Positions 1-14,727 of a stretch of 64,000 nucleotides of DNA are shown here, piece by piece. Both the position numbers and the translations under genes were made by a program. The notes under the pieces are model-generated. The model did no database searches. It worked only from the letters and a program-made list of their open reading frames with translations, and was not told the origin of the DNA. Source of the DNA: Oligoflexia bacterium (GTDB lineage: Bacteria; Bdellovibrionota; Bacteriovoracia; Bacteriovoracales; Bacteriovoracaceae); contig JADGAN010000002.1 in assembly GCA_015231955.1 (NCBI GenBank), forward strand, positions 1 to 64,000, in the 5' to 3' direction. The first letter of the stretch is position 1. Each line of letters starts with the position of its first letter.

Positions 1-54
1 TACTTTGATCAATTTAAACTACCAAGATTGTATGATGAACTTAAACCGCGTTGA
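1..54 (+). CDS. Group II intron reverse transcriptase, C-terminal end (partial)
   Basis: The first 17 codons read as the extreme C-terminus of a group II intron-encoded protein (YFDQFKLPRLYDELKPR, then TGA at 52-54). The rest of the gene lies upstream of the window. The identification rests on what follows: the stop codon runs straight into an intron domain V, the arrangement usual in bacterial class C introns, where the reverse transcriptase frame ends at the start of domain V. The encoded protein would act as maturase and reverse transcriptase for intron splicing and mobility. Whether the full protein is intact cannot be judged from here. Confidence 0.75.
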   Translation, partial: YFDQFKLPRLYDELKPR

Positions 55-125
55 ACCGCCTTGGTACGGACCCGTATGCCAGGTGGTGTGGGAGGGAAAG
101 CCCGCGAGGGCCTACCTATCCCGCT
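53..125 (+). ncRNA. Group II intron domains V and VI (3' end of intron)
   Basis: Bases 55-60 (ACCGCC) pair with 82-87 (GGTGGT), and TGG 62-64 with CCA 79-81. A two-base bulge (77-78) follows, then TACG 65-68 pairs with CGTA 73-76. This is the classic domain V hairpin with its dinucleotide bulge. Domain VI follows: GGGA 90-93 pairs with TCCC 119-122, and an inner GCCC/GGGC stem (100-103/108-111) is closed by a GCGA tetraloop, with an unpaired A in the 3' strand (near 114 or 118) as the likely branch point. The exact 3' splice site is uncertain by a few bases. Class C introns usually sit behind transcription terminators. The intron marks the left side of an AT-rich accessory region. Confidence 0.8.
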
Positions 126-390
126 AACTCCAGTTCCTCGCAGGATAGAAGAAATATGTTTCATGCAATGACCCATTGAGTTCTGTTCATTACAGATTTT
201 ACTTACATATTTTAGTGAATGCTAATGTTACGTTACGCCATATCCCTATAATATTTATATAAAATAAAGGACATGATTTATCTGTAGTGCTTTGGCCCCC
301 TTAAACGCCGTAGTAAAATCTCATTCCCACTATAGTCCATGAAATATCAATATATTAGCACGATTTATATCACTCAAGGTGTAGGATTTT

Positions 391-410
391 TGCATACATG
401 TTTGTATGCA
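391..410. promoter_or_regulatory. Perfect 8-bp inverted repeat in the 126-534 leader (operator candidate)
   Basis: The stretch 126-534 between the intron and the first full gene holds no convincing gene. Its clearest feature is TGCATACA, four bases, TGTATGCA (391-398/403-410), a perfect dyad typical of a dimeric regulator site. A TTGACA hexamer sits at 435-440, but no good -10 box lies at normal distance, so a promoter is only suggested. A TATAAT at 247-252 has no matching -35. The dyad lies about 125 bases upstream of the response regulator start at 535 and could control the whole island operon. Confidence 0.4.
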
Positions 411-534
411 TCAAAAATAAGCCCTCTCTTCCTATTGACAATGCACGTTCGGTTAATGCAAAAGAATAGGTCAAAACAATACTAGATCGTAAGAGTCCAA
501 TATCGTATTAAAGAACCGTTGTGGGGGATGGCAA

Positions 535-1950
535 GTGGTTACTAAAATAAAAGTACTTGTTGTAGAAGATATAGAGGTTTTTAGGCAGAACATCGTTAAG
601 CATGTCTCTAGACATGCAAATCCCATTGCTGTTTCCAATTTTGAAGAGGCCAAACGCGCTCTACTAGAGCAGCACTTCGACATGGCATTAATCGACATTA
701 ATCTCAATGGAGAAGATACCGGGTTTGAACTGCTGAAATTGGCAAAGAGAAAGAATATTTTTTCGGTAGTCTTAACCAATTATGATGATAGCGATTATAT
801 TGCTACTGCATATAAGCTTGGTTGCAACCTTTTTTTAACCAAGGATCAATGTGAAGTAGTTATTGAACATGTAATAAAAGGGCGTATTAGCGAAGAATTA
901 GCAAAAGCTGCCACTCCCAATGCAACTTTTGAGCAGATGGATATTTTCAAAGAAAATTATATATCCATAAACAAACTAATCACCACAGAGATTAATTTAC
1001 TTAAGGCCCGCATGTTTGATAAGCGGCCAATATTCCTTATAGGTGAGACAGGAGTTGGCAAAAATTTACTTGGACAGCTGATTCATCAATCACTCTATCC
1101 TAATAATAATAACTATACCGTATTTAAATGCTCACAGTACTCAGAAAAGGATGTAGATAGTACTCTTTTTGGGAAGATAACTGGCATTGAAAACGGAGTG
1201 GTTGCTTACGATAAAGGTTTGCTTGAACTGGCCCAAAATGGAACTCTTTATATTGAGGAAATAGGCGCCTTAAGTTTATCAGTGCAAAAAAAATTAGCGA
1301 AGGCCTTAGAGGAAAAGTGTTTTATCCCTCAAGGTGCTAGCGAATATAATGCCATAACTCCTATCTCAATTGATTTTCAGTTAATTGCTAGTACTTCTGA
1401 CAATATCTATAAAAAAATAGAAGAAAATCTTTTCTTGGCATCTTTGTTACAGAGGATACACACCATCACACTGGAAATTCCACCGCTAAGGAAAAGAATA
1501 GAAGATGTTAAGTTGCTAATTGAACATTATTTTAGAAACGGTATAGATGGAACAGATATCAATAATATTTCGCTTGGGTCCAGCGCTATTGAGGCCCTTT
1601 GCAGATATGATTTTCCTGGTAATGTTAAAGAGTTAAAGACAATTTTGTTATCCCTTTCATTAAAGAAATTCGGAAATCTTTCTGTAGAAGATTTACCCAA
1701 AAGTCTGCTGCATGTTTATAGGATATATACATCATTTAATGACAGCAGCCGCTTTGCAACTGATGACCAAGTTAAATACATAAAAAAAGTTGGATTCAGA
1801 AAATTCGTGGACAAATTAGAATCTGAGGTGGTCAAAGATTTTATTAAAAAACATGGGCATGCGGAGAAAGCATACAAGGAACTTCGTATAAATAGACATA
1901 AATATTATAAGATAATCAGGATGCTCGGTGAGGAGGCAAAATTATCATGA
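535..1950 (+). CDS. Response regulator, REC plus AAA+ (NtrC-like with degenerate GAFTGA) plus helix-turn-helix
   Basis: This 471-aa cytoplasmic regulator starts with GTG behind a G-rich RBS. Residues 1-120 form a receiver domain with the acidic pair VVED, phospho-acceptor Asp in LIDINL and the Lys in FLTKD. An AAA+ domain follows, with Walker A (GETGVGKN), Walker B-like LYIEEI, an arginine-finger region and the conserved FPGNVKEL. The C-terminus (HGHAEKAYKELRINRHKYYKII) resembles a Fis-type DNA-binding helix-turn-helix. The oddity is the loop that should read GAFTGA to touch sigma-54: here it reads GIENGV. The protein may therefore regulate without sigma-54, as known for some NtrC-family members such as TyrR. 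Its natural input is the hybrid kinase at 8107 or the phosphotransfer-like protein at 1947. Confidence 0.85.
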   Translation: MVTKIKVLVVEDIEVFRQNIVKHVSRHANPIAVSNFEEAKRALLEQHFDMALIDINLNGEDTGFELLKLAKRKNIFSVVLTNYDDSDYIATAYKLGCNLFLTKDQCEVVIEHVIKGRISEELAKAATPNATFEQMDIFKENYISINKLITTEINLLKARMFDKRPIFLIGETGVGKNLLGQLIHQSLYPNNNNYTVFKCSQYSEKDVDSTLFGKITGIENGVVAYDKGLLELAQNGTLYIEEIGALSLSVQKKLAKALEEKCFIPQGASEYNAITPISIDFQLIASTSDNIYKKIEENLFLASLLQRIHTITLEIPPLRKRIEDVKLLIEHYFRNGIDGTDINNISLGSSAIEALCRYDFPGNVKELKTILLSLSLKKFGNLSVEDLPKSLLHVYRIYTSFNDSSRFATDDQVKYIKKVGFRKFVDKLESEVVKDFIKKHGHAEKAYKELRINRHKYYKIIRMLGEEAKLS

Positions 1951-2168
1951 CAGGATCTAATATGGATAATAACAAGGCAATGGAAACTCGAACACTTAGG
2001 CATGATTTGAAAAACAGTTTGCAAGTTGCAAAAATTTTATTTGTGACTATTGAGAATCAAATAAAAGAAGGTGTGTCACTAGATAGCAATCAATTAGATG
2101 ATATGAGTAAAAATCTATCTTTAATGAATGCAAAATGGGAAGAGTTAAAAAATATAATAGTTAAATAG
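1947..2168 (+). CDS. Small orphan DHp (histidine phosphotransfer-like) protein
   Basis: The gene encodes 73 aa and overlaps the regulator stop by four bases (ATGA), so it is probably translationally coupled. An AGGAGG-like site lies 11 bases upstream, and an in-frame ATG at 1962 is an alternative start. The segment RHDLKNSLQVAKI looks like the H-box of a histidine kinase dimerisation domain, where H is phosphorylated. A second amphipathic helix (LDDMSKNLSLMNAKWEELKNI) would complete a two-helix hairpin. No ATP-binding domain follows. By analogy with Spo0B-type or Hpt proteins it could relay phosphate between the hybrid kinase and the neighbouring regulator, or titrate the regulator. The assignment rests on motif reading only. 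Confidence 0.6.
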   Translation: MTGSNMDNNKAMETRTLRHDLKNSLQVAKILFVTIENQIKEGVSLDSNQLDDMSKNLSLMNAKWEELKNIIVK

Positions 2169-2231
2169 ATAAAATAATTAGTAATCACATGAAGATGAAA
2201 TATTAAGTTTATAGAAATTTCTGGGACAGCA

Positions 2232-3425
2232 ATGGGAACACAGTTTTCAAAACATTTTTATATAGTCTGTTTGTTTTTTTTGGTATCTACAGTATTCTCA
2301 TTCATTAACCCTTTAATGATTCCAATATTGGTAGCAAATGGTAGCCAAAGTGCGCAAACGGCATCAATAATTCAAACGATAGCTTTTTTATGTGCAGGCA
2401 TATTTCAACCAATTTTAGGTAGGATGATAGACAGCAAACAGTTTAAACTAGCATCCTTTTCAATTGCAGCATGCATCCTATTCGGCTTAGGAAGTTTTTG
2501 CATAGGTAACCCAATGTTTATCACAATGGGAATGGTCTTTTTTTCGATTGGTTTTGTGTCCCTCTTCACAATGACTATATTTTGCTTGGTTGGTTGTGTA
2601 CATGAAAGCAAAAGAACCAAAGCTTTTACCATTGTCTACATGATTTTAAACATTGGTGGGGCAATTTCTGGTCTAATTGCATATCTGTTTATGGGTAAGT
2701 TCAAGCAACAATTGATCGCCATTGATTTAATTACCACTATACTTGCCACCTTAGTTATTTTTTTAACGATACATCTATCAATAAAAAATAATAATTTTAA
2801 CTATACATTCAAAAAAGAAAAGATTTCCTTTCGAGATGATATTATTCCTAAATGGCATCTGTTTTTGGGATTAATTTTCTTGCAAATACCCATGTTTTCT
2901 CATGTATCAATTTTTCCTTTATATTTTAGTGAAAAAGGGCTTGATGCACAGAAGCTTACTTCACTGATATTCATCGTTAATACTGCGTTTATCATTGTAT
3001 GTGCACCAATTGTATCAAAAATATTTGAAAAGATGGGAATATCGAAGACCTTTTTTATTGGCATGTTTTTTCTGGCAATCGGACAGGCGATCTTTCCTAC
3101 TTTTTTAAATAATTTTGGAATATTTTCTTCCACAGTTTTATGGACTATTGGTGAATTAATAATTTTACCTAAAATTGTAGTATTCATCTACTCCATTGTT
3201 GGCGAAGACAAAAAGGGATTGGCCTCAGGAATAAATACGGGACTGTTATCAATAGCGAAAGTGATGAATCCGCTATTCGGATTGCTGGTACTCAAATCAA
3301 ATGTAGTGGCCATATCACTGTTGCTTTTTGCTATTCCTATAATTGGATACGCATTAACATCACTAGATTATATTTTTAAAACAAAACGCACAATTACAAC
3401 AGCAACCTGTGTTGCCAGTGAATAG
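2232..3425 (+). CDS. MFS transporter, 12 membrane segments (candidate peptide exporter)
   Basis: This 397-aa protein is made almost wholly of hydrophobic helices in two halves of about six, with a polar loop near residues 190-205 (KNNNFNYTFKKEKISFRDD). GRMIDSKQFK at residues 59-68 is the usual MFS loop 2-3 motif. It belongs to the sugar-efflux/multidrug group of the major facilitator superfamily by overall look. The RBS is weak. It lies directly before the 25-aa peptide gene, and a strong hairpin separates the two. In this context it is the only transporter candidate for moving the peptide product across the inner membrane. The substrate is inferred, not shown. Confidence 0.8.
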   Translation: MGTQFSKHFYIVCLFFLVSTVFSFINPLMIPILVANGSQSAQTASIIQTIAFLCAGIFQPILGRMIDSKQFKLASFSIAACILFGLGSFCIGNPMFITMGMVFFSIGFVSLFTMTIFCLVGCVHESKRTKAFTIVYMILNIGGAISGLIAYLFMGKFKQQLIAIDLITTILATLVIFLTIHLSIKNNNFNYTFKKEKISFRDDIIPKWHLFLGLIFLQIPMFSHVSIFPLYFSEKGLDAQKLTSLIFIVNTAFIIVCAPIVSKIFEKMGISKTFFIGMFFLAIGQAIFPTFLNNFGIFSSTVLWTIGELIILPKIVVFIYSIVGEDKKGLASGINTGLLSIAKVMNPLFGLLVLKSNVVAISLLLFAIPIIGYALTSLDYIFKTKRTITTATCVASE

Positions 3426-3432
3426 TGAGTGG

Positions 3433-3460
3433 AAAATATTCTCGATTAAGAGAATATTTT
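3433..3460 (+). terminator. Perfect 11-bp hairpin after the MFS gene
   Basis: AAAATATTCTC (3433-3443), a six-base loop and GAGAATATTTT (3450-3460) form a perfect stem ending in T residues. It lies eight bases past the MFS stop and 27 bases before the peptide gene. It could be an intrinsic terminator or attenuator that uncouples the peptide gene from the regulator and transporter genes. The T tract after the stem is short, so termination may be partial. Confidence 0.55.
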
Positions 3461-3486
3461 TATAAAAACCCAAAAAGGAGAAGAGC

Positions 3487-3564
3487 ATGAAAATCATTCC
3501 TTCGAACAAAAGTAATTCTAGCGCTTATGCCGCAATGAATCCGCTTTCTCGTCCAAGAATGTAA
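3487..3564 (+). CDS. Short peptide gene, candidate RiPP or pheromone precursor (25 aa)
   Basis: A 25-codon frame starts at an ATG with an excellent ribosome binding site (AAGGAG 3475-3480, six-base spacing). It begins MKIIPSNKSN and ends MNPLSRPRM. It has five serines and no cysteine or threonine, with a basic, proline-rich C-terminal stretch. No relative is known to me. Support comes from context: it is bracketed by a hairpin on each side and precedes a YcaO enzyme, a peptidase and a peptide-binding receptor. A leader-core split near Ala-Ala (residues 15-16) is possible, giving a nine-residue core. Serines could be substrates for azoline formation, or the backbone for thioamide or amidine formation. 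The frame is very short, so chance cannot be excluded. Confidence 0.6.
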   Translation: MKIIPSNKSNSSAYAAMNPLSRPRM

Positions 3565-3576
3565 CAGAGAAGCGGA

Positions 3577-3614
3577 AGCTGCCATTTCGCTCTCATAGGG
3601 AGTAAGTGGCAGCT
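3577..3614 (+). promoter_or_regulatory. Stem-loop between peptide gene and YcaO gene (attenuator or 3' stabiliser)
   Basis: AGCTGCCATTT (3577-3587) pairs with AAGTGGCAGCT (3604-3614) over 11 positions with a single U-G wobble. A short inner CTC/GAG stem lies inside the loop. It starts 13 bases after the peptide stop and lacks a U tract. Stem-loops at this place are common in peptide gene clusters, where they raise the amount of precursor message relative to the enzyme genes. Confidence 0.5.
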
Positions 3615-3677
3615 ATCTAGCTAACGTATGCCTTAAATTTAGGAAAAAAGGTAAGTATTATACAGGAGAAATAGCTA

Positions 3678-5537
3678 ATGTTGCGACAAACGAGATCTTA
3701 TAAGGAAGATACACCTTTAAACACAGTTCATAAACTCAGAGGAATCTTACATGACATTGGCATGTATGTTTATGAAAGTGAATGGTACAATCCTTATAAC
3801 AATATTTACTCTGTACGTTTGAGCACAGAAGAAAAAATCTTGTTTGGAACTAATGGCAAGGGTACCAGTAGACAATTTGCTCTTGCTAGTGCTTATGCTG
3901 AGTTTATGGAGAGGTTGCAAAATGGTCTTTTTCATAACATGCCAGCATGTTTATATAACCGAATAAAAGATAAGTGTGGGTTTAATTTTTATCCAGATGA
4001 AGTTCTCTTGGATGCCAACCAAATTGCCCTATTACCTGCTATTGTTTTAAAAGATATTTTTAATGTGAGTGATGAGAACTTAGTATCAAAAATTACCGCA
4101 TATTTTTCTCAATTGGAAAATGAGTCGTGCCCTGGAAAATGTGTTGGTGTTCCTTACTATAACATAAAGAGTGGTGAGATAATTCATCTCCCTTTAAATC
4201 AAATTTTAGAGACGACTGGTTCAAATGGCATGTGCGCCGGTAATACAGAATATGAGGCGGTTTTTCAAGGGCTGTGTGAAATTCTTGAACGTTATGCTGC
4301 AAGTGAGATATTTTATAACAAATTATGTCCTCCAACATTGCCAAGAGAATATTGGGAGCATTGTACTGAAGAGTGCTCAATTATAGATGAAATTGAAGCT
4401 ACTGGTGAATATAAGGTCGTAGTAAAAGATTTTTCAATTGGTAAAAAGCTGCCAGTTTTGGCAGCAATATTAATAGATAAAATGGCCAATACTTATAGGA
4501 TAAAAGTTGGCAGTGATACCTCTTTTAAAGCAGCACTTGGTCGCTGCCTAACAGAGATGTATCAGGGAATAAAATGCAACTCTGAATTCCGAAAAGAGTT
4601 TTTCAAGATCCCTACAAACGAACTGGAAATGTTTATCCATGATGATACCAAATCACAAAAATCCAGAAGTGAAGAGTTTACTAACTTCAATATTGACGGT
4701 CGAGGTCAATTTCCTATGGCTCTTTTCGGAGAAGATCCAGATTACTCAATAGATATTAACTGTTTTACTATCGGCGCTTCATTTAGAGATGAAGTCTGCA
4801 ATATTATAAATTTAATAAAAAATTTGAATTTTGATGTTTATATAAGAAATGTCTCTTTTCTTGGATTTCCATCATTTCATATCTATGTACCAGGAATGTC
4901 ATCGTTAGGTGTGAAAAAAGTATTTGATAACAATAGTGGCGATACCTACACGCAAATAAATTTTTCAAAAATTCGGAAAATATTATATGACTTCGATGCC
5001 AATGCCACTAAAGATCTTATGTGTCTTGCAGAGGAACTACAAAAAGTTAATTATAAAAGTACCATGGCACAAATACTATTGCTGGATGTGAAAAAAACTT
5101 GTGAATGGCATCATATGACAGTGGCACTTTTTTTATCGCTGCTATGGCAACATTTAGGCAATTTTTCAAAAGCAAAACATTTTCTAGAAATACATGTTGC
5201 TGCTAAAACACATGATAACGACTATTACCAGGTAGCGATTGCATATTTACAGATACGACAAACTACCGCTGATGTTAAACATATTCATAATCATTTAACA
5301 CTGCTTGGATATGATAATGAGTTAATAATTGAAATAACCAGAGACTTAAGTAGCAGCGAGGGTAAATTTAAATATATTCGTTTTCCTAAATGTCCCAATT
5401 GTGAAGCATGCTCTTTACGTGGAGAGTGTATTCAAGAGAAAAAAATAGAACACATAATGGCCATGTACTCTAAATTCAATAAGAAGATTCTACCTGTGAA
5501 TTTTATAAATATTAACGCAGATTATACAGCAATTTAA
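3678..5537 (+). CDS. YcaO-domain protein with TPR-like region and C-terminal Cys4 cluster
   Basis: YcaO enzymes use ATP to activate amide backbones, making azolines, thioamides or amidines in peptides. This 619-aa protein follows E. coli YcaO along its length as I remember it: FGTNGKGTSRQFALASAYAEFMERL near residues 55-80, the ATP-site block TGSNGMCAGNTEYEA...EILER (residues 180-205), and a helical TPR-like part around 470-560. It lacks the PxPxP C-terminus of azoline-forming YcaO enzymes. Instead it ends with four cysteines (C572, C575, C578, C584) spaced CX2CX2CX5C, a likely zinc or iron-sulfur site absent from E. coli YcaO. The RBS AGGAG is present. Its place after a tiny peptide gene argues for a peptide substrate, but E. 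coli-type YcaO proteins have no settled peptide substrate. Confidence 0.85.
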   Translation: MLRQTRSYKEDTPLNTVHKLRGILHDIGMYVYESEWYNPYNNIYSVRLSTEEKILFGTNGKGTSRQFALASAYAEFMERLQNGLFHNMPACLYNRIKDKCGFNFYPDEVLLDANQIALLPAIVLKDIFNVSDENLVSKITAYFSQLENESCPGKCVGVPYYNIKSGEIIHLPLNQILETTGSNGMCAGNTEYEAVFQGLCEILERYAASEIFYNKLCPPTLPREYWEHCTEECSIIDEIEATGEYKVVVKDFSIGKKLPVLAAILIDKMANTYRIKVGSDTSFKAALGRCLTEMYQGIKCNSEFRKEFFKIPTNELEMFIHDDTKSQKSRSEEFTNFNIDGRGQFPMALFGEDPDYSIDINCFTIGASFRDEVCNIINLIKNLNFDVYIRNVSFLGFPSFHIYVPGMSSLGVKKVFDNNSGDTYTQINFSKIRKILYDFDANATKDLMCLAEELQKVNYKSTMAQILLLDVKKTCEWHHMTVALFLSLLWQHLGNFSKAKHFLEIHVAAKTHDNDYYQVAIAYLQIRQTTADVKHIHNHLTLLGYDNELIIEITRDLSSSEGKFKYIRFPKCPNCEACSLRGECIQEKKIEHIMAMYSKFNKKILPVNFININADYTAI

Positions 5538-5574
5538 AGATCATAATAACCAATAATGAGAGGGAACTTATTTT

Positions 5575-6645
5575 ATGAATATTGAAAAATTGTTAACTGA
5601 TGTTTTTAATCCTCAAGCAAATGATGTAGCAGTTGTATTATGTGATATCCCTCATACCAATATTGAAGATAATTCTAAGTGGTATGAGAGGCGTATAATG
5701 GCCCAAGAGTGGAGAGAGGCATTTATCTCTTTAAGTCAAAAAATCGGGTTCAAGGTATTACCGTTAATTGAATTCCCTGCATCAGGTGCTCATAGTAAAA
5801 ACGTTCCGATGGAATTAGGTACTCCTCGTTCAATAGATAGTGCATTTGCTCAATCAACATTGGCAGTAGCATTAACCGAATTCTCCATAACACCTTTGCT
5901 AATGAATTACTCCAAACAACGTAAGAATTTTAGATCAGCATCTCTACCTATTGTTGAAAAGAGAATGGAAAAAACAGCTTTAGCTGCTGACTACAAGGAA
6001 GTATACAGGAGATGCTTGGTGGTTGAAGAGCTAATGAAAAACATAAAAGGTGCAAATGTAAAATTCTCAACAGGCCATGATTGCTATTTTGATTTAAGAT
6101 TTAGAACTGTTCGCAAAGACTCCGGGAGACTACATCAAGGAGACTCTCCTGAATTCCCATTTATGAATTTACCCAGTGGGGAAGTATATATGGTTCCTTA
6201 CGAAGGAGAGAAAGATTGCAAATCTGAAACCGCCGGTCTTATTCCTGCATTTATCAACAATGAATCTGTCGTGTTAAAAATAGCAGCGAACAAAATTGTT
6301 GAGGTTAGCGACTTTGAAACTAGTGCCGAAAATTGCAGGAATCTATTTGCACAAGATCCTGCCAGAAGGAATATTGCAGAATTTGCGATAGGGTGCAATC
6401 CTTGGGCAGTAGTTACTGGCAATATCCTAGAAGATGAAAAAGCAGGGTTTCATTGGGCATTCGGAAGAAGTGAACATATTGGCGGTATTATTAAACCAAG
6501 TGACTTTATTTCATCTGAAAATGTATTGCACGTGGATGTAGTTTACGCAAAAGATAGTAAATATCAGGTAGACTTCTTAGAGTTCATTTATGATGACAAT
6601 AGTAAAAAGAACATTATCGAAAATCGGGAATATCTAATTTTTTAA
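5575..6645 (+). CDS. M29-like (AmpS/PepS type) metallo-aminopeptidase
   Basis: The protein has 356 aa, cytoplasmic, with no signal peptide. It shows the marks of the M29 family: NLPSGEVYMVPYEGE (conserved NLPxGEV), then RRNIAEFAIGCNPWAVVTGNILEDEKAGFHWAFG and a terminal HVDVVY, which carry the Glu, His and Asp metal ligands. The N-terminal third also fits the family. M29 enzymes remove N-terminal residues using two metal ions. It follows the YcaO gene by 37 bases in the same direction, so one transcript is likely. In this setting it could trim the leader of the modified peptide after an endopeptidase cut, or degrade the peptide signal. No peptidase with a clear endoproteolytic fold is in the cluster. 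Confidence 0.75.
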   Translation: MNIEKLLTDVFNPQANDVAVVLCDIPHTNIEDNSKWYERRIMAQEWREAFISLSQKIGFKVLPLIEFPASGAHSKNVPMELGTPRSIDSAFAQSTLAVALTEFSITPLLMNYSKQRKNFRSASLPIVEKRMEKTALAADYKEVYRRCLVVEELMKNIKGANVKFSTGHDCYFDLRFRTVRKDSGRLHQGDSPEFPFMNLPSGEVYMVPYEGEKDCKSETAGLIPAFINNESVVLKIAANKIVEVSDFETSAENCRNLFAQDPARRNIAEFAIGCNPWAVVTGNILEDEKAGFHWAFGRSEHIGGIIKPSDFISSENVLHVDVVYAKDSKYQVDFLEFIYDDNSKKNIIENREYLIF

Positions 6646-6674
6646 TTTTTTATTTTTTTATAGGATTTAAAGCT

Positions 6675-8120
6675 ATGAACATAATTTTGAAAAAAATGCT
6701 ACTAACATGTATGGTTTTATCTACCATATTCGTATTCGAAATTTGCAATGCAGAAACTCTTCGGATAAATATTGAAAAATGGCCTTCAGGGCTAGACTTC
6801 GTGAATGGTCTTACCCTAGAGTCAATTGTTATCGGCAATCAAGTTTATGATACATTATTAAAAAAACTCCCATCTGGAGAAATCATTCCAGAACTAGCAG
6901 AGTCATGGGATTACGAGGAGGGGCATAAGGCAATAAGGTTCAAATTAAAAAAAGGTATCTACTTTTCTGATGGAGTTAAATTAAATACTGAGCATATAAG
7001 GTTTATATTCAATAAATATAATAAGCTTAAATTGAAAAAATCAAAGGATACTATCCAGGCCATTGCTCGTTTTGAAAAAATAAATGAGCTAGAGTTTATT
7101 ATTAGATTAGAGCATGAAGATTCCAAGTTTTTAGATAGGTTAACTGATCCTGAAAATATTGTTGCCAGAAGCACAAAAGGAATGCCTTGCGCAATAGGAA
7201 CAGGAGCATACTACATAAGCAATGTTCAAGAAAAAGAAGGAGTAATTATATTAAGTAGGAACCAATACTCAAACATTCCTACTGATTTTTCTACTATAAT
7301 ATTTACTACCAAGAAAACTTCCGATGCAGATATTTCATTTGTTAAACCTAACTCTGATAGTAAGCTGATTGCTCAAAATTATTTTGACACTGAAGTACAC
7401 TATTTAGGAATATTTTCAGATCATCCAGACTATAAGGATCTGAATAAGAGATTATATTTAATCTCATTTTTAACAGAGGATGTACTCAAATCAAGCGAAG
7501 AGGTACATAAATATAAAATAGGAGGTATTATCCCATATGGCCAGTTTGGGCATTCTCAAGATGCTCTATTACCCATAGGCAAGTCACAAAAGATCCATTT
7601 CCCCTCTCCTATAGAAGTTGTTTATTATGCCGATTTTCATCAAAAGATAGCAACAGCATACTGTGATAACTTAAAGAAAAATGGACTGATTTGTAATTTA
7701 CAAAAGATAACTGCTGATGAGTATTTAAAAAAAACAGAGAAAGGAGAGTTACAGGTATACTTTATGAGGCAGAAGTCTACGGGATTTAGCTCAGAGGATA
7801 TATTAAGCTTTTTCACAACTGATAGTATTTTTAACTTTTCTTTCTATCATGACAGCAAAAATCCATTGGCAAAAAAATTAAACAAACTATTTCTTAGCAT
7901 CATTAAAATTCCATTTACGGATCAAGAGCTATTAAAAAAGTATTATATACAAATGGATGAAACTATTATTGCCAATGGATTGGCAAAACCATTTAGATAT
8001 GGCGGGGAAAAATCCGTCTGGCATACTAAAAAAATTATCCTACCCAGAATAGGTACAAATGGCCCATTTGGCATGATGCTCAATGAAGTAAAGCTAGCGA
8101 GGGAAAATGAAAAACGATAG
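6675..8120 (+). CDS. Periplasmic peptide-binding protein (ABC family 5), likely kinase co-receptor
   Basis: This 481-aa protein has a cleavable signal peptide (hydrophobic stretch about residues 8-22, cleavage near CNA-E). The mature part is typical of family 5 binding proteins for oligopeptides and related ligands: ANQVYDTLL-like start, GEIIPELAESWDYEEGHKAIRFKLKKGIYFSDGVKL and the later GTGAYYI. No ABC permease or ATPase gene is nearby. Instead the gene overlaps the start of a membrane histidine kinase by 14 bases. This pairing recalls binding proteins that sense a ligand for a kinase (LuxP-LuxQ is the classic case). I infer that it binds the peptide product of this cluster in the periplasm and presents it to the kinase. 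Confidence 0.85.
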   Translation: MNIILKKMLLTCMVLSTIFVFEICNAETLRINIEKWPSGLDFVNGLTLESIVIGNQVYDTLLKKLPSGEIIPELAESWDYEEGHKAIRFKLKKGIYFSDGVKLNTEHIRFIFNKYNKLKLKKSKDTIQAIARFEKINELEFIIRLEHEDSKFLDRLTDPENIVARSTKGMPCAIGTGAYYISNVQEKEGVIILSRNQYSNIPTDFSTIIFTTKKTSDADISFVKPNSDSKLIAQNYFDTEVHYLGIFSDHPDYKDLNKRLYLISFLTEDVLKSSEEVHKYKIGGIIPYGQFGHSQDALLPIGKSQKIHFPSPIEVVYYADFHQKIATAYCDNLKKNGLICNLQKITADEYLKKTEKGELQVYFMRQKSTGFSSEDILSFFTTDSIFNFSFYHDSKNPLAKKLNKLFLSIIKIPFTDQELLKKYYIQMDETIIANGLAKPFRYGGEKSVWHTKKIILPRIGTNGPFGMMLNEVKLARENEKR

Positions 8121-10455
8121 TAAAATATTGCCTTTTTCACTGCTATTAAATTTGAAATTTAAAAGAATATTTTTCTCAGTAGTACTAATTGGGATGCTGT
8201 TACTGGTACTCATTGATCTCCTATTATCATTCAATAACGAGATAAAAAAGCTTACAACTGATCTTGTGTCTTTTGAGAGGAGTCAGATAAAGAAACTGCA
8301 AAACTATGATTACACTGAGGTCAGTGAAGATCTCTCATCGTTTTATTATGTTAGGCCTTTAAAGGCAATTGCTATGGTAGATAGATATGGGATTACCATA
8401 TCAGAAATTAACAATGTAAAATATAATCACTTATCAAATGATAATGGGAGTTACCTGTACTACGGTAAAGAAGCAATTGCGCTTGTCTATAATAAAAAGA
8501 TCGAGACAAAAAATGGTGAATACTTAGGAGCAGTTATTGTTAATATAGACATCTTTAAACTGCTTATCCCCATTTTGATTCAACTTGGTATACTTTTGCT
8601 GATGCTTGTTACAATGTTTGTTTCATTAAAGATTATTTTAAGTAAAAATATTAAAGCAATGATTTCGCCATTGACGAATTTCACTGAAAATATTTCAAAA
8701 ATGAATAACAATACTGATGTCTCAATAAGTCAATTTGAGTTAAAAAACACTAAAATTGCAGAACTGATATCTTTAAGTAATCAGTTCATCGAATGGCAAC
8801 AACGTTCCTTGGTATATGATAAATTAAAACAAGAAAATACTAAATTAAATGCTATTGCCAGTACCACTCAAATGCTGGCACACGACGTCCGCAAACCCTT
8901 TGCCAGTATAAAGTCAGTTTTAAATATGCTGGATATATTGAAAGATAATCCCTTACAGCTAAAACAGGCAAAAGTTGATATTGAAAAATCAATTAAAAAT
9001 GTAGAGTCGATGATTGCAGATATAATGGATTTTTCTCGAGAAGTAAAATTAGAAACAAAACCGCAATCAGTAGTGTCACTCCTTGATTTCTCTATTAGAC
9101 AAACTGCTCAAGGATACAAAAATGCAGCGATAAATTTCAAATATGAATTGTCTAATCAACACTGTCCCCTCGTTGATGATGAAAGGCTGGCAAGAGTATT
9201 TGGCAATATTATAGGAAATGGTATTGAGGCTATCACAGTAATTGGAGCGAAAGAAAACGGTAATATCTGGATTAAATCCAAAGATTCAGGAGATTGGATA
9301 GAGATTGTTATTGGTAATGATGGACCAGCATTTAAAGAAGAAGATATTCCTAAATTATTTGATTCTTTCTTTACCAAGGGAAAAAAGAAAGGTACAGGTC
9401 TAGGACTTGCTTCCGTCCAAAAAATTATTTATTTACATGGTGGTCAAATAGAAGCAAGAAATGCCTCTAGCGGCTTAGGAGTTGAGTTTATAATAAAACT
9501 CCCTGCATCGGCAGAAAAAGAGTTTCATAATGATGATATTTTACCAAAAAATATTCAAGATATTACGTTTAAAGTAACCACCAAGGATGAATCATTAGTA
9601 AATGATTCCATCAAGAAGATTGCTTCGTCAGGAACTGTCAAAATGCTGCTTTTAGAAGATGAAGCACTCTATCGAGCATCTGTAAGAAATACCATCAAAA
9701 ATGCCCCAGAGTTACATAAAGTATTAACTTTATATGAAGTTCACACAGTAGAAGATGCCATTAAAGTTGTTGAACAAGAAAAAATAGAATGGGCCATAGT
9801 AGATATTGATTTAGGTGAAATTAAAAATGGTTTTGATTTTTTGAGTGAGGCCAGAACAAGGTTTCCAAAGCTAAAGTCTATCGTCCATTCCAATAGATGC
9901 ATAAAAGAAGATAAAGAGCGAGCTAGGAACCTTGGAGCAATTGATTTTGTACCGAAACCCTTGGAGTTGGTTAATTTAATAGATCTATTATCCCATGGAA
10001 GTTGCACCGACAATAAAAAAAAAGATGCCTCCTCATCAAGTGTTAGTGCAAGTGCAACTAGCGATAAATTGACTATTAGCTTGAGTAAATCATCTAAAGA
10101 TAGTAGCACTGATGGAAATATGATCTATGATGCCCTTTTTCTAGATGACGATAAATACCTTCGTATGGGGTGGGATCTTGCTGCTAAAAACAAAAAGATT
10201 AAATTATTAACTATTGCTAAACCAGCAGATTTTTTTAAGCATGAGCACCTTCTATGTAAAGAACAAACGGAAATTTATGTTGATAGCAATCTTGGTGAAG
10301 AAGAAATTAGGGGAGAAGATTTTGCTATTGAACTGCACAGTAAAGGCTATAAAAAGATTTGCATGGCAAGTGGCCATGACAAGGAAAAGTTTGCGCACAT
10401 TGGATCATGGTTGTCCTGTAGGGGGAAAGATAGTCCGTGGGAAGAAGAGTGGTGA
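8107..10455 (+). CDS. Hybrid histidine kinase with two C-terminal receiver domains
   Basis: In 782 aa, a membrane helix at about residues 20-42, a periplasmic segment of about 110 aa and a second helix at about 153-178 are followed by a linker and the kinase core. H259 in MLAHDVRKPF is the phosphorylation site. The N box is GNIIGNGIEAI, and the nucleotide-binding glycines are in GNDGPAF and KGTGLGLASV. Two receiver domains follow: MLLLEDEALY...AIVDIDLG...FVPKP, and a more divergent DALFLDDDKY...EIYVDSNLG, ending in GKDSPW. Translation is probably coupled to the binding protein gene. The short periplasmic part suits contact with a binding protein. Output likely goes through the phosphotransfer-like 73-aa protein and the regulator at 535. 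Confidence 0.88.
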   Translation: MKNDSKILPFSLLLNLKFKRIFFSVVLIGMLLLVLIDLLLSFNNEIKKLTTDLVSFERSQIKKLQNYDYTEVSEDLSSFYYVRPLKAIAMVDRYGITISEINNVKYNHLSNDNGSYLYYGKEAIALVYNKKIETKNGEYLGAVIVNIDIFKLLIPILIQLGILLLMLVTMFVSLKIILSKNIKAMISPLTNFTENISKMNNNTDVSISQFELKNTKIAELISLSNQFIEWQQRSLVYDKLKQENTKLNAIASTTQMLAHDVRKPFASIKSVLNMLDILKDNPLQLKQAKVDIEKSIKNVESMIADIMDFSREVKLETKPQSVVSLLDFSIRQTAQGYKNAAINFKYELSNQHCPLVDDERLARVFGNIIGNGIEAITVIGAKENGNIWIKSKDSGDWIEIVIGNDGPAFKEEDIPKLFDSFFTKGKKKGTGLGLASVQKIIYLHGGQIEARNASSGLGVEFIIKLPASAEKEFHNDDILPKNIQDITFKVTTKDESLVNDSIKKIASSGTVKMLLLEDEALYRASVRNTIKNAPELHKVLTLYEVHTVEDAIKVVEQEKIEWAIVDIDLGEIKNGFDFLSEARTRFPKLKSIVHSNRCIKEDKERARNLGAIDFVPKPLELVNLIDLLSHGSCTDNKKKDASSSSVSASATSDKLTISLSKSSKDSSTDGNMIYDALFLDDDKYLRMGWDLAAKNKKIKLLTIAKPADFFKHEHLLCKEQTEIYVDSNLGEEEIRGEDFAIELHSKGYKKICMASGHDKEKFAHIGSWLSCRGKDSPWEEEW

Positions 10456-10814
10456 AAAAGCTTATTGCCAAGACAATCTGCAAATTTCTGAATAACTGTA
10501 AATTTTTTTTACATAATCTTGTTTATTTATCAAAATATAAAATAGCAATTCGTAGTCTTTGTACGTCTGTGACCTTAAAGCAAGCTAAGATAGGAAATGT
10601 AAGAGATTCATTAGTGTATTCATGGAAGATTCTACAGCTGCGAGAGCTGCTTAAAAGACCTGGATCTGATATTAAGGGGTGTGATAGTTGTAGCTCTAAT
10701 AGAAAGTGCGCTGGAGGATGTAGAGGAGAGGAGCTATTTATTAGTGGGGATGTTTTAGGTAGGACTGCTAGATGCGCTGACCTCAGTGACATACATCATG
10801 GAAACAACGTATAG
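10437..10814 (+). pseudogene. Remnant of a radical SAM enzyme: SPASM domain only
   Basis: An open frame of 125 codons overlaps the kinase end. From about codon 36 it reads as the C-terminal SPASM part of a radical SAM peptide-modifying enzyme: IGNVRDSLVYSWKILQLRELLKRPGSDIKGCDSCSSNRKCAGGCRGE, with the CX2CX5CX3C cysteine pattern and a last Cys in ARCADL. The radical SAM core with its CX3CX2C motif is missing, and the first 35 codons resemble nothing. A deletion between the kinase and this gene, perhaps tied to the nearby IS element, explains it. It implies that the ancestral cluster carried a second modifying enzyme. Expression as a short protein is possible but would lack catalysis. Confidence 0.7.
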
Positions 10815-10887
10815 TATTTTCTAAAATCAAGCCAACTAAATAACTCCGCTATTCCTCTGTTGCTGTTTCCTTTTTAGATATGCTCTT

Positions 10888-10906
10888 ATATCAGGACTTT
10901 CCCAAA
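10888..10906 (+). repeat. Left terminal inverted repeat of the IS element
   Basis: The 19 bases match the complement of 12357-12375 without mismatch. The transposase stop codon is 19 bases inside. Confidence 0.85.
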
Positions 10907-10924
10907 AATCATAAAATCTCAGGT

Positions 10925-12199
10925 CTAGGCAGCAAGCATATCCGAGTGTGATTTCTTTTCCGCAATAGTATCAACGGGCTTACTAACCATGCATTTGCTT
11001 CTTGCTTTTAATTTTAATAATTTCTTAGTGTTTACATTTTTGTCCTCTAAGAAAAAATTAATTGTTTTATTCATATTCTCGTGCCTTATTTTTTTTACCA
11101 TCAACCCAATGCTATCTCTACACAAAAGCTCACATTCCCCTCTGAAGTCTAGCAGCAAGTAGGTATAAATAATAAATGGGATACAGACGGTTAAATCTGA
11201 TCCTTCCTCCCCTCTGCATTCTAACTTCCCCCATGAAAGATTTTGTTTTAGATCTCGAAACATACATTCAATTTTCCATCTCGCTCTACTATATTTCCAA
11301 AGCTCTGCCCCAGACATTGAAAGGTTAGTAGTTGCATAAAAGGCAAATGGTGTAGTGCTGTTTTTCCCATTGTAAACTGCGATGACATTTAACAAGGTTG
11401 GAAGCTTTTTTATGTACAAACTTATCGAACTAAACCACTTCCTCTTTGTTAGATACTTTTTATTATTTGGGTTCAATCTAGCGACAACAGAATATCTCTT
11501 GAGGTGAATAAAAAAATTCCCAATAGTATCCCAGAGTTCTTTTTTGTTAGAGTGTGCATTCCTATTACTTCTCAATTCAACTACAATTTCAAAAACATGA
11601 TCATTGATTTTTTTGATGAATTCGGCCGCACTAAACCACGAGTCTGCAACAACTGGCAGTGTAGTAGGTATGCCATGCTCTCTTGCCTCTAGCACTAAGT
11701 CTGCTGCTAAATCGAGATCTGATAAGTAATCAGCTTCATTTTTTTTAGTCGCAAATCTATAACCCAAGGGAATTGCAAACCCATTCCTGATATCAACAAG
11801 TGCTATGATTATTACCTTTTGTCCAAAACAAATACCTTTACTGCTCTTCCACTTTCCAGTTCTGAAAATATTTTTCCCTGATTTAACATTGTCGGTATCA
11901 TCAATGGCCAAGCAAAAATTTTCTGGGTCTAATTCACCCTTGTACTTTCTCAATACACTGGCCCTTAATCTCTTCATAAATCTATTGCCTTTAAATTCCT
12001 GCACGGCCCTTGAGAGAGAGCTTACAGAGGCAGCATCAGGCACTGCTCTAACAACACCACAAAGGGAGGGGCAATTATAAAGATACATTGTAAAAAAACA
12101 GCAGAGCGAGTTATAGTCGATCTCTAGCATTAAAGAAATATCTTTGAACCGATCCGATAATGTTCTAGAGACTTTACAAAAGCTCAAATTAATTGTCAT
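10925..12199 (-). CDS. IS4/IS701-like DDE transposase
   Basis: The protein has 424 aa. DDE catalytic residues are visible: the first Asp in CLAIDDTDNVKSG, the second in LPVVADSWFSAAEF, and the Glu in YSRARWKIECMFRDLK. This last block gives R-x3-E-x6-K, the IS4-type signature with one extra residue after the Tyr. The gene fills most of the element and appears intact, so the copy may be active. The subfamily cannot be fixed by eye. A 157-base leader inside the right end (12200-12356) would hold its promoter. Confidence 0.85.
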   Translation of the reverse strand: MTINLSFCKVSRTLSDRFKDISLMLEIDYNSLCCFFTMYLYNCPSLCGVVRAVPDAASVSSLSRAVQEFKGNRFMKRLRASVLRKYKGELDPENFCLAIDDTDNVKSGKNIFRTGKWKSSKGICFGQKVIIIALVDIRNGFAIPLGYRFATKKNEADYLSDLDLAADLVLEAREHGIPTTLPVVADSWFSAAEFIKKINDHVFEIVVELRSNRNAHSNKKELWDTIGNFFIHLKRYSVVARLNPNNKKYLTKRKWFSSISLYIKKLPTLLNVIAVYNGKNSTTPFAFYATTNLSMSGAELWKYSRARWKIECMFRDLKQNLSWGKLECRGEEGSDLTVCIPFIIYTYLLLDFRGECELLCRDSIGLMVKKIRHENMNKTINFFLEDKNVNTKKLLKLKARSKCMVSKPVDTIAEKKSHSDMLAA

Positions 12200-12356
12200 A
12201 ATAAAATCATCGTTGTTGTTGTTTTTGGTTATGTTTTGGTCAATATATTCAAATATGACAACAGCGATTTGTCATTAGAAAATAAGGTTGCGGAAAAATC
12301 GATATCTTTACTTTCAATCGTAAAACTCAACTATTTAAACTGTGTCATAGGGAGTG

Positions 12357-12375
12357 TTTGGGAAAGTCCTGATAT
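12357..12375 (-). repeat. Right terminal inverted repeat of the IS element
   Basis: These 19 bases are the exact complement of 10888-10906. The next gene begins at 12397, so its native promoter has been displaced by the insertion. Confidence 0.85.
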
Positions 12376-12396
12376 CTATAAAAACAGGATCACATC

Positions 12397-14727
12397 GTGT
12401 TTGCGAAAATAAAACAGTCACACCTCTACCTCTTTATTGCCTTAGTAGTCGCACTGCTCATGATCATCTATCGTCCTTTCTTTTTCCACCGCCACTTACA
12501 CCTCTATAACGATGTCGGGATTGATTCTATTCAACAAACACTTCCCTTCATTGCCCATCTTGCAGATGCCCTTCGCGCAGGGGAGTGGTCCTCGCTTCTA
12601 TGGTCTTTTAAAAGTGGTATCGGCCAGCAAACTTATCTTTTGTTTCCTGTAGAGTTTACCGATCCCTTTAATCTGCTCTGGGCGCTCTTTGGAAAAGAAC
12701 AGGTCGCCTCTATGTGGATCTATATTCACTCTCTAAGAATTTTAGCCACTAGCGTGCTTTTTTATCTCTATCTTTTAGAACTAGGTCTTAACTTTTTTGC
12801 ACGCACCATTTTTTCGCTACTCTTCTCTTTTTCTGGGTATATGTTTTTACTATCACTATGGCCAAGTCTGGTGCTCATCCCAACCTATTTTGCACTGATG
12901 CTCTTAGGAGTAGAAAAATTTTTCAAACACAAAAATATTTTCCTACTTCCTTTGGCCATTTTTCTTATCAGTATCGTACAAGCGATCTACTGCTACTATT
13001 TTCTGCTCTTATTGCTCCTTTATCTTTTTGCAAGAACCGCTTGCACTTCCTCCTCCTCCTGGCGCCAATCGTTTACTGCTCTATTCCTGTGGGGTATGGG
13101 AGCGCTCTCTAGTGCTATCGTCTCCTTGCCAGTGCTCATGCATGAACTCTCAGGAGCGCGCGCCTCCACAAGTTCTATCTTCCAAAAAATCATTCACGAA
13201 CCGCTGACAACGATAGTCACTCCCCTGGAAGTTTACACTGTTTTTTTTCGACTTTTTTCTACAGACTTTCTCGGAAAATCGTTTGCCTATCAAGGGGCCG
13301 GTAACTATATCGGTGCTCCCGTCCTCTATACTGGAGTCGCCACGCTCATTCTATGCCTTCTCTGTTTTTTCAACTCCTCATGGAGACAAAAAGTGGTCTA
13401 CTTCACACTTTTACTGGTCGCCCTTATGCTACTGCTTCATCCCTACACTCGCCTCCTCTTTCACGCCTTCGCAGGCCCCTACTACCGCCACACTTACTGG
13501 GTAAACTTTGCGCTCCTCTTTTGTGCTATCGCTGGATTTAAGCGCCTCGAACAAAAAGAGCTACCACACAAGTTTACTCCTCTGATCGTCGCCACTCTCA
13601 TCATAGCTCTGCTCCTCCTAGTCTCCTTTACTCACACCTCTAGTGCTTCTTTCGTCAATAAAAGTATCTTGATCAACGTCACCCTTTTACTCGCTCTTTA
13701 CGGCACCCTGTTTTCTTTCTGGCATCAATTTCCTCGCACCAGCAAAATCCTCTTTACTCTTCTCTTGCTCTTTGAACTTTGTGATTTCTCCTATAAGAGC
13801 TCCTTTTATAAGCGTGGTGTACTTCCGTACGAAGACTACCACAATCCCCAATTTGGTTATATTGAAGAGGATACAGGCACAGCGATCGCTTACCTTAAAG
13901 CAACCGACAAACAATTTTATCGCATGGAAAAGCTCTACTTCTCTGCTTCCCCTAACGATTCCATGTATCAAAATTACTATGGAAGCAAGGCCTACTACTC
14001 CTTCACACAAAAAAGTTATATCGATTTTTTAAGTGAACTAAATGACAAACCTTTGCACATTATTTGGTTGGAAGGACCCGATAAGCGGGCGATCAACGAT
14101 CTTTTGGGCATCAAATATTTTCTAAGTAAAGGCGCACTTTCCGAAAGCAGCAGCAAGGGAATGCAGCTGCTAACCTCTATCCATCAAACTTACATCTATA
14201 AAAACCTCCAAGCACGTCCGCTGGGATTTACTTACGACTTAAACGCTGCAATCTCGAAAGAGCAGTTTCTCGCCCTCTCCAAAGAGGATCGAGCAACGAC
14301 ACTACTGGCCCACTTTGTTCCCGAGCAAGATCTCGCAGCTCTTTCTCCTTCTCCCGCTTCCCCTCCCTCTGGCAGCGCCTCACTTGAAATCAGCAGCTTC
14401 TCCCATCGCCATCTCCATGGCAGCATCAACTCCACCGGCCCCGCACTGCTCTTTTTCTCCATCCCTTACGATGCTGGATGGAAGGCCACCGTTAATGGCG
14501 AAGAGGTGCCTTTGCTAAAAGTTAATCTCGGGCTTACGGGAATCCTCCTCCAAGAGAGCGGCCTAAAACAAATTCATATGAGCTTTCTTCCCCGCTATTT
14601 TGCTTTGGGCGCTTTGCTTTCACTACTTGGAATCGTGGCCTTTACCCTTTTTGCCTACTTCTACCTCTACTCCTATTCTCGTTACAACAAATCGAAGACC
14701 TCTCCAATATCGAGATCATTATTGTAG
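12397..14727 (+). CDS. YfhO-family polytopic membrane protein
   Basis: This 776-aa membrane protein starts at GTG after AGGA with seven-base spacing. A first hydrophobic helix (about 8-28) is followed by DVGIDSIQQTLPF, then about ten more helices up to residue 450. A long extracytoplasmic part comes next and a last helix near 735-757. The block FFSIPYDAGWKATVNGEEVP is the typical YfhO C-terminal motif. YfhO proteins resemble GT-C glycosyltransferases and act on cell-wall or lipid-linked sugars (YfhO glycosylates lipoteichoic acid in Bacillus). Only 21 bases separate the start from the IS end, so transcription must come from within the IS. The 3' end overlaps the convergent gene by 46 bases. 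Confidence 0.75.
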   Translation: MFAKIKQSHLYLFIALVVALLMIIYRPFFFHRHLHLYNDVGIDSIQQTLPFIAHLADALRAGEWSSLLWSFKSGIGQQTYLLFPVEFTDPFNLLWALFGKEQVASMWIYIHSLRILATSVLFYLYLLELGLNFFARTIFSLLFSFSGYMFLLSLWPSLVLIPTYFALMLLGVEKFFKHKNIFLLPLAIFLISIVQAIYCYYFLLLLLLYLFARTACTSSSSWRQSFTALFLWGMGALSSAIVSLPVLMHELSGARASTSSIFQKIIHEPLTTIVTPLEVYTVFFRLFSTDFLGKSFAYQGAGNYIGAPVLYTGVATLILCLLCFFNSSWRQKVVYFTLLLVALMLLLHPYTRLLFHAFAGPYYRHTYWVNFALLFCAIAGFKRLEQKELPHKFTPLIVATLIIALLLLVSFTHTSSASFVNKSILINVTLLLALYGTLFSFWHQFPRTSKILFTLLLLFELCDFSYKSSFYKRGVLPYEDYHNPQFGYIEEDTGTAIAYLKATDKQFYRMEKLYFSASPNDSMYQNYYGSKAYYSFTQKSYIDFLSELNDKPLHIIWLEGPDKRAINDLLGIKYFLSKGALSESSSKGMQLLTSIHQTYIYKNLQARPLGFTYDLNAAISKEQFLALSKEDRATTLLAHFVPEQDLAALSPSPASPPSGSASLEISSFSHRHLHGSINSTGPALLFFSIPYDAGWKATVNGEEVPLLKVNLGLTGILLQESGLKQIHMSFLPRYFALGALLSLLGIVAFTLFAYFYLYSYSRYNKSKTSPISRSLL

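Follow-up and report, generated by a model that had tools for sequence, protein, structure and literature searches.

Periplasmic binding proteins that inform a membrane-bound hybrid kinase of a small ligand are known from LuxP-LuxQ and similar systems, in which a phosphorelay leads on to a sigma-54-type regulator. Agr, ComQXPA and nisin/NisRK each rely on a ribosomal peptide that undergoes modification and export before a co-encoded histidine kinase (HK) senses it; these systems are Gram-positive, use other modifying enzymes and have the peptide bound directly by the kinase, with no binding protein. The Opp-dependent pheromones (Phr, PapR, PrgZ) are secreted peptides with an active C-terminus, which are recognized by an OppA-like binding protein and imported unmodified. 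Here we describe a locus at positions 535-10455 of a 64,000-nucleotide stretch of Oligoflexia bacterium DNA (family Bacteriovoracaceae; contig JADGAN010000002.1, positions 1 to 64,000; hereafter the window), which encodes a candidate peptide, a YcaO enzyme, a family-5 solute-binding protein (SBP), a hybrid HK and a response regulator (RR). The locus is probably a member of a family of Bdellovibrionota signalling modules that couple an enzyme for ribosomally synthesized and post-translationally modified peptides (RiPPs) to a dedicated periplasmic sensor.

The proposed layout of binding protein and hybrid kinase is the same as that of LuxP-LuxQ, whereas the SBP belongs to the peptide-type family 5 and shares its operon with a peptide gene and a RiPP maturase. 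The grouping of peptide gene, modifying enzyme and kinase resembles Agr, ComQXPA and NisRK, from which the locus differs by its binding protein. OppA-PhrE is a fold match of the window SBP; in contrast to the Opp pheromones, there is no permease and the kinase is proposed to read the SBP. YcaO RiPP clusters (linear azole peptides, thioamides; TIGR03604, SagD) share with the loci described below the Pfam YcaO domain, both ExxER motifs and a small gene with a Cys/Ser/Thr tail. Unlike them, the module YcaOs score 35-49 bits against TIGR03604, the SagD-type azoline cyclodehydratase family (45.7 for the window YcaO; cut-off 219), are tied to a sensor, and show no E1-like or TfuA partner, no search having been aimed at one. 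The clusters of α-ketoglutarate-dependent HExxH (aKG-HExxH) peptide β-hydroxylases (TIGR04267) likewise have a short peptide directly before an enzyme that one sister module matches (43.5 against a cut-off of 40), but lack the coupling to SBP, kinase, regulator and major facilitator superfamily (MFS) protein. E. coli YcaO, the S12 methylthiotransferase accessory factor, is homologous to the window YcaO but differs in operon context. No Gram-negative circuit joining a RiPP maturase, a family-5 SBP and a histidine kinase was found described in the open-access literature, as a first-pass annotation of the window had supposed for pheromone systems with an E. coli-type YcaO, although subscription papers and preprints may differ.

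A recurrent gene unit across the Bdellovibrionota

A family search with the window SBP returned SBP genes beside kinase genes, with the enzymes changing from locus to locus. At five loci, a protein of about 300 aa encoded between or beside the SBP and the kinase scored above the Pfam YcaO cut-off. A profile for short YcaO proteins (about 320 aa), built from these five seeds, was searched in 369 genomes of the phylum and matched in 108 of them. Forty non-seed loci were fetched by YcaO score alone and annotated with local hidden Markov models. The SBP gene lies on the strand of the YcaO gene in 36 of the 40, and SBP and kinase are both present in 35, often with a REC-AAA+ regulator as well. Neither SBP nor kinase is found in L155, L161, L170 and L175, and L163 may be cut by its contig end (L denotes loci and G related genomes, G000 being the source genome and C19, C27, C35 and C63 its other contigs). 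SBP and HK genes thus come together in these 35 loci, and in the window, where no permease gene is present, the two overlap by 14 nt, which marks them as a putative sensor pair. The genes are arranged either as [RR]-small-SBP-YcaO-HK or as YcaO-small-SBP-HK-RR. Seeds counted, the YcaO modules span 36 genomes and 9 GTDB families, and additional loci conform to the pattern.

These loci support a recurrent unit made up of a gene for a small peptide, an enzyme of peptide modification, an orphan family-5 SBP, an overlapping kinase and a REC-AAA+ regulator, whose gene content, order, overlaps and recurrence are read directly from the genomes. The first-pass annotation had set as a test beforehand that YcaO genes near a family-5 SBP and a kinase should be accompanied by a small gene, and the outcome was positive in most loci tried. 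It had joined the sensor pair to an E. coli-type YcaO; the unit recurs, but most often with a short SagD-like YcaO, and among the modules only that of the window has the E. coli-type enzyme.

A small gene preceding the SBP gene

In the YcaO modules, the SBP gene is immediately preceded by an ORF of 48-171 aa whose start is of the Sec type. Under one fixed rule for all genes, chosen after seeing the data, such an ORF abuts the start of 40 of 42 SBP genes in YcaO modules, compared with 15 of 181 other genes at the same loci (p = 3e-29), and a Cys falls within its last 12 residues in 23 of the 42, in 0/7 YcaO-free modules and in 1 of the 181 other genes (p = 8e-19), both p-values overstating independence because the loci share ancestry. 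The 42 SBPs take in the five seeds and one second SBP (L140). When the last 25 residues were considered, Cys separated the groups less (23/39 versus 58/194). The C-termini of otherwise different small proteins read RGGTICF, NGTVCI, TGTICV, EGTVCI, GNPTCWTK, SPSCWTEPI and GGSCE.

In two of the small genes, the differences between relatives fall mainly at third codon positions (27 versus 6 and 4; 85 versus 27 and 14), and therefore these two genes are translated and constrained by purifying selection. The co-occurrence of small gene and maturase is an equally direct observation. Since the small gene abuts the SBP gene and, in most modules, YcaO is encoded next to the SBP or HK gene or overlaps one of them, the genes for putative synthesis and sensing form one unit. 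By the features that usually identify a RiPP locus, the modules carry a maturase of a known family (YcaO, or in sister modules radical S-adenosylmethionine (rSAM)/SPASM and TIGR04267 enzymes) and, beside it, a small gene predicted to encode the precursor.

Other maturases in the same position

The place of YcaO can be taken by other enzymes. Modules L092, L106, L190, L191 and L192, from 5 genomes and 3 families, have an aKG-HExxH peptide hydroxylase together with an MFS gene; TIGR04267 scores are 43.5 for L106 and 33.6 for L092. These modules encode a peptide of 26-32 aa with the pattern NLDIxxDEVIGExRGSxx and no signal sequence (MDSYDFDLDIHQDEVIGELRGSELGH, MNSGITFNLDIHRDPVLGEIRGSVDIGGGGY, MNGENVDVLVNLDVLTDEVIGETRGSADW, MTTLEQNEQLEDVIINLDIFDDEIMSEARVSA, MNRNKKMRVKRRTFNLSLLKNKLIGEVRASYP). 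A strong ribosome site of the AAGGAGG type precedes four of the five peptides, and the SBP stop is overlapped in L092 and L106. The HExxH form adds 2 GTDB families to the 9 of the YcaO form.

An rSAM/SPASM enzyme occupies the position in C63 of the source genome (L103) and in L211 (G021), with the order RR-rSAM/SPASM-Sec-type small gene (86 and 105 aa)-SBP-HK; in L103 only, a small His protein sits between RR and rSAM/SPASM. A further module on C27 (L206, 77000-91600) reads RR-69-aa His protein-108-aa Sec-type gene-SBP-SBP-YcaO-like-HK. Its YcaO-like protein scores 20.3 bits with Pfam, below the cut-off, and divergent rSAM and MFS genes lie alongside. Counting those of the window, C63 and C27, the source genome therefore has three modules, each with a different type of maturase. 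A fourth flavour is represented by the window, which resembles the HExxH form in its short peptide without signal sequence and its MFS gene.

Two further observations concern these sister loci. Upstream of the C63 module, a short ORF with a strong ribosome site (L103 3266-3430; MAIKKGPKMLEEIVKRRASGPQWSK) contains in its +1 frame the 8-aa repeats VALNGAND VALHQGNS VALNGRNM VALNAGNS, so that a frameshifted repeat peptide is possible. In a YcaO-free flavour (L098, L101, L104, L093, L099), SBP, kinase and regulator are accompanied by an α/β hydrolase, and the SBP genes tested there have no small gene before them.

The window locus

Eight ORFs on one strand and a 25-aa ORF with a strong ribosome site were identified by ORF and Pfam scans (Table 1). 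All ORFs named in the first-pass annotation proved real; the rSAM/SPASM tail that follows them had been missed.

Table 1. Features of the window locus and its right boundary
Feature	Position	Strand	Evidence
REC-AAA+ response regulator (NtrC-like)	535..1950	+	Pfam Response_reg 44.6, Sigma54_activat 105.5 bits
73-aa two-helix protein, phosphotransfer-like, LRHDLKN His	1947..2168	+	4-nt overlap with regulator gene
MFS transporter, candidate exporter	2232..3425	+	Pfam MFS_1 90.2 bits
AU-rich 12-bp hairpin between MFS gene and peptide ORF	3432..3461	+	Fold of 3426-3680, z = -4.2
25-aa candidate precursor, MKIIPSNKSNSSAYAAMNPLSRPRM	3487..3564	+	AAGGAG 6 nt before ATG; shuffle test
Stable GC-rich hairpin lacking a U-tract, between peptide ORF and YcaO gene	3574..3616	+	RNA fold
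E. coli-type YcaO, 619 aa	3678..5537	+	Pfam 152 bits
Divergent M29-like (aminopeptidase T-like) protein, candidate trimming peptidase	5575..6645	+	Pfam 24.3 bits
Orphan family-5 periplasmic binding protein (SBP_bac_5)	6675..8120	+	Pfam 83.4 bits
Hybrid histidine kinase, HisKA-HATPase-REC plus second C-terminal receiver-like domain	8107..10455	+	Pfam
Radical SAM maturase remnant, SPASM tail only	10437..10814	+	TIGR04085 27.0 bits, equal to cut-off
Insertion sequence (IS) transposase (DDE_Tnp_1), right bound of locus	10925..12199	-	Pfam

The 25-aa ORF had been put forward as the precursor. Of 5000 dinucleotide-shuffled versions of the 252-nt gap, 15 contained an ORF with such an ideal ribosome site (p = 0.003), and the whole 64 kb holds 3 ORFs of that quality on both strands; however, the usual precursor candidate of the family is the 48-171-aa Sec-type protein, and the 25-aa peptide matched no protein family. 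The surrounding gap folds far better than its own shuffles, and the GC-rich hairpin might conceivably serve as a processing or stabilizing element. A dispersed repeat was ruled out for both ORF and hairpins, each of which is single-copy in the genome. The MFS C-terminus (3410-3425) reads TITTATCVASE, resembling the Cys-containing C-termini of the small proteins of the Sec type; this tail (TTATCVASE) was considered as the core peptide of the window and set aside, the likeness having no companion evidence.

The window YcaO is homologous to E. coli YcaO (PDB 4q84, E = 8e-37) over residues 16-411, and both ExxER ATP/Mg motifs are kept in the alignment. The C-terminal CX2CX2CX5C noted at first pass is present as C572, C575, C578 and C584, outside the aligned part. 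Assignment as the S12 accessory factor was rejected with an NF040716 score of 211 bits against a cut-off of 700; a true member in L027 scores 839 and the second copy of the genome, in C35, 457. The closest YcaO relative, in G021, is 34% identical and shares the Cys tail. A scan of the genome collection with the window and G021 YcaOs returned G021 only, and in a plasmid search the module YcaO was unmatched and the M29-like protein gave weak matches only. Two other YcaO genes of the source genome were noted: a second E. coli-type YcaO of 564 aa followed by a cluster with two radical SAM genes (L024 9499-18058, on C35), and a 345-aa YcaO gene (L025 9671-10708, on C19). The latter lies on the strand opposite to a REC/kinase pair and has nearby one acetyltransferase-like gene and one resembling B12-type radical SAM, with no SBP.

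The peptidase of the first-pass annotation is recognizable as a divergent M29-like protein in which the His/Asp motif HVDVVY looks kept by eye, but its score stays below the PF02073 cut-off (24.3 versus 27 bits). Genes 48% identical to it in G104 and G294 lie on short contigs (3.8-6.1 kb) without YcaO, which rules the M29-like gene out as an obligate YcaO partner and makes its role uncertain.

For the sensor, an AlphaFold2 (AF2) model of the window SBP (predicted local distance difference test, pLDDT, 78.8) matched MppA, NikA, DppA and OppA best among PDB structures, with template modelling (TM) scores up to 0.79. The Pfam scan of the window found no permease or ABC ATPase near the SBP. The C-terminal domain of the window kinase is 58% identical to the kinase of the C63 module. 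The 73-aa protein has analogues by position and sequence in L103, L154, L190, L196, L092 and L206, and His19 is invariant in the alignment with these six relatives, which lie beside regulators. Its AF2 model consists of two helices (pLDDT 83.7) for which the fold search gave no specific match to a solved fold; it is a candidate phosphotransfer-like helical hairpin. The GAFTGA loop, kept in most sister-module regulators, is absent from the window regulator (which reads GIENGV) and likewise from those of L092, L103 and L106; rpoN is present in the source genome.

Proposed circuit and alternatives

We infer a circuit that extends from peptide modification and export to the identity of the ligand, phosphotransfer and self-sensing. 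The small peptide gene would be translated and its product modified in the cytoplasm by the maturase, in the window the E. coli-type YcaO. The product would leave the cytoplasm by Sec in the common form; the window and HExxH forms would use the MFS protein instead. In the periplasm, it would be captured by the orphan family-5 SBP, and the co-encoded hybrid kinase would read the loaded SBP and pass phosphate to the REC-AAA+ regulator, probably via the 73-aa His protein. This follows the sequence of making, modifying, exporting and sensing proposed at first pass, of which the recurrent gene unit now stands as observed, while modification and sensing keep the status of predictions.

Several points weigh against such a circuit. 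Besides the shared ancestry mentioned above, the YcaO profile was derived from SBP-YcaO-HK modules, so its top matches may favour that context. The Cys motif is absent or non-terminal in L094, L095, L141, L142, L166 and L172. The enzyme set of the window is a singleton, and its 25-aa peptide is without homologues and contains neither Cys nor a Sec signal. An E1-like or TfuA partner is usual for YcaO enzymes; no E1-like/ocin-ThiF or TfuA partner was seen in the window or recurring in the module gene strings, where no search was aimed at them. NikA and MppA are among the top SBP matches, and the ligands of family-5 binding proteins include nickel chelates, opines and murein peptides as well.

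The last point bears on the strongest alternative, which we nevertheless regard as unlikely: the SBP/kinase pair would sense outside ligands such as prey oligopeptides or murein peptides, and the YcaO, rSAM or HExxH genes would make an antimicrobial or other peptide merely regulated by the pair. The top fold match of the window SBP is indeed the murein tripeptide-binding MppA, and YcaO-free SBP-HK-RR modules without the small gene do occur. The first-pass annotation had named loci without a small gene as grounds against its circuit; the gene is nearly always there in YcaO modules, but none of the 7 SBPs of YcaO-free SBP-HK modules has a small abutting ORF, and therefore not every SBP/kinase pair is a peptide circuit. 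Against outside ligands in the YcaO modules speak the small gene at the SBP start and the YcaO gene at the SBP or HK gene, as well as the lack of any recurring immunity or dedicated toxin-export gene.

Less likely again, the small Sec-type protein could be a periplasmic sensor subunit or inhibitor, with the maturase modifying this subunit, or the SBP, in a cofactor-like manner. Lengths of up to 171 aa exceed those of usual precursors, and the two tested small genes are under purifying selection along their length. A subunit is, however, hard to reconcile with C-termini that are alike (GTICF, GTVCI, TGTICV) on bodies that differ, or with the HExxH form, whose peptides have only 26-32 aa and lack a signal sequence. 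We find it least credible that the window genes are a chance patchwork at an AT-rich contig end bounded by an IS, with a YcaO in a housekeeping role and an M29-like protein and a sensor that are both unrelated to it: the nearest YcaO (G021) is a lone gene, M29-like relatives occur on contigs without YcaO, and a contig edge and an IS flank the locus, but the window YcaO scores lower as an S12 factor than even the second copy in C35, and RR, His protein, maturase, MFS, SBP and HK match the sister modules part for part.

A broader form of the modified-peptide circuit, to which we give an even chance, is that RiPP-pheromone circuits with interchangeable maturases (short YcaO, E. coli-type YcaO, radical SAM, aKG-HExxH hydroxylase) occur phylum-wide, each making a private ligand for its own OppA-type SBP and hybrid kinase, and perhaps gauging predator growth inside the closed prey cell. 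Signalling by peptides within an invaded prey cell, a closed space, would be a natural application, which we offer as an idea. If these circuits operate as proposed, predatory bacteria would communicate, or keep track of themselves, by means of post-translationally modified peptides; a substrate and a receptor could be predicted for dozens of YcaO, radical SAM and HExxH enzymes; and a direct test of the timing of predator growth in prey would become possible.

Boundaries of the locus

A radical SAM/SPASM tail lies directly after the kinase gene and next to the IS, which suggests a second maturase, either formerly part of the window module or located next to it. Over an alignment of 81 aa, the tail is 40% identical to the C-terminal end of the intact rSAM enzyme encoded next to the C27 module. 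The locus is AT-rich, as noted at first pass, with a G+C content of 31-37% against about 40-50% further along the window. Mobile flanks had also been proposed and are present in the IS and a contig-end repeat, but occurrence of the unit in 9 GTDB families in the YcaO form and 2 more in the HExxH form means that it is not merely a mobile-element island. No Rfam RNA element was matched in 1-13000, the contig-end repeat included. The left edge is the end of the contig, whose first 127 bp (1-127) have 8 further full or partial copies elsewhere in the genome, with 96-100% identity. Three of these 8 copies begin at base 1 of a contig, and the repeat looks like the end of a mobile element.

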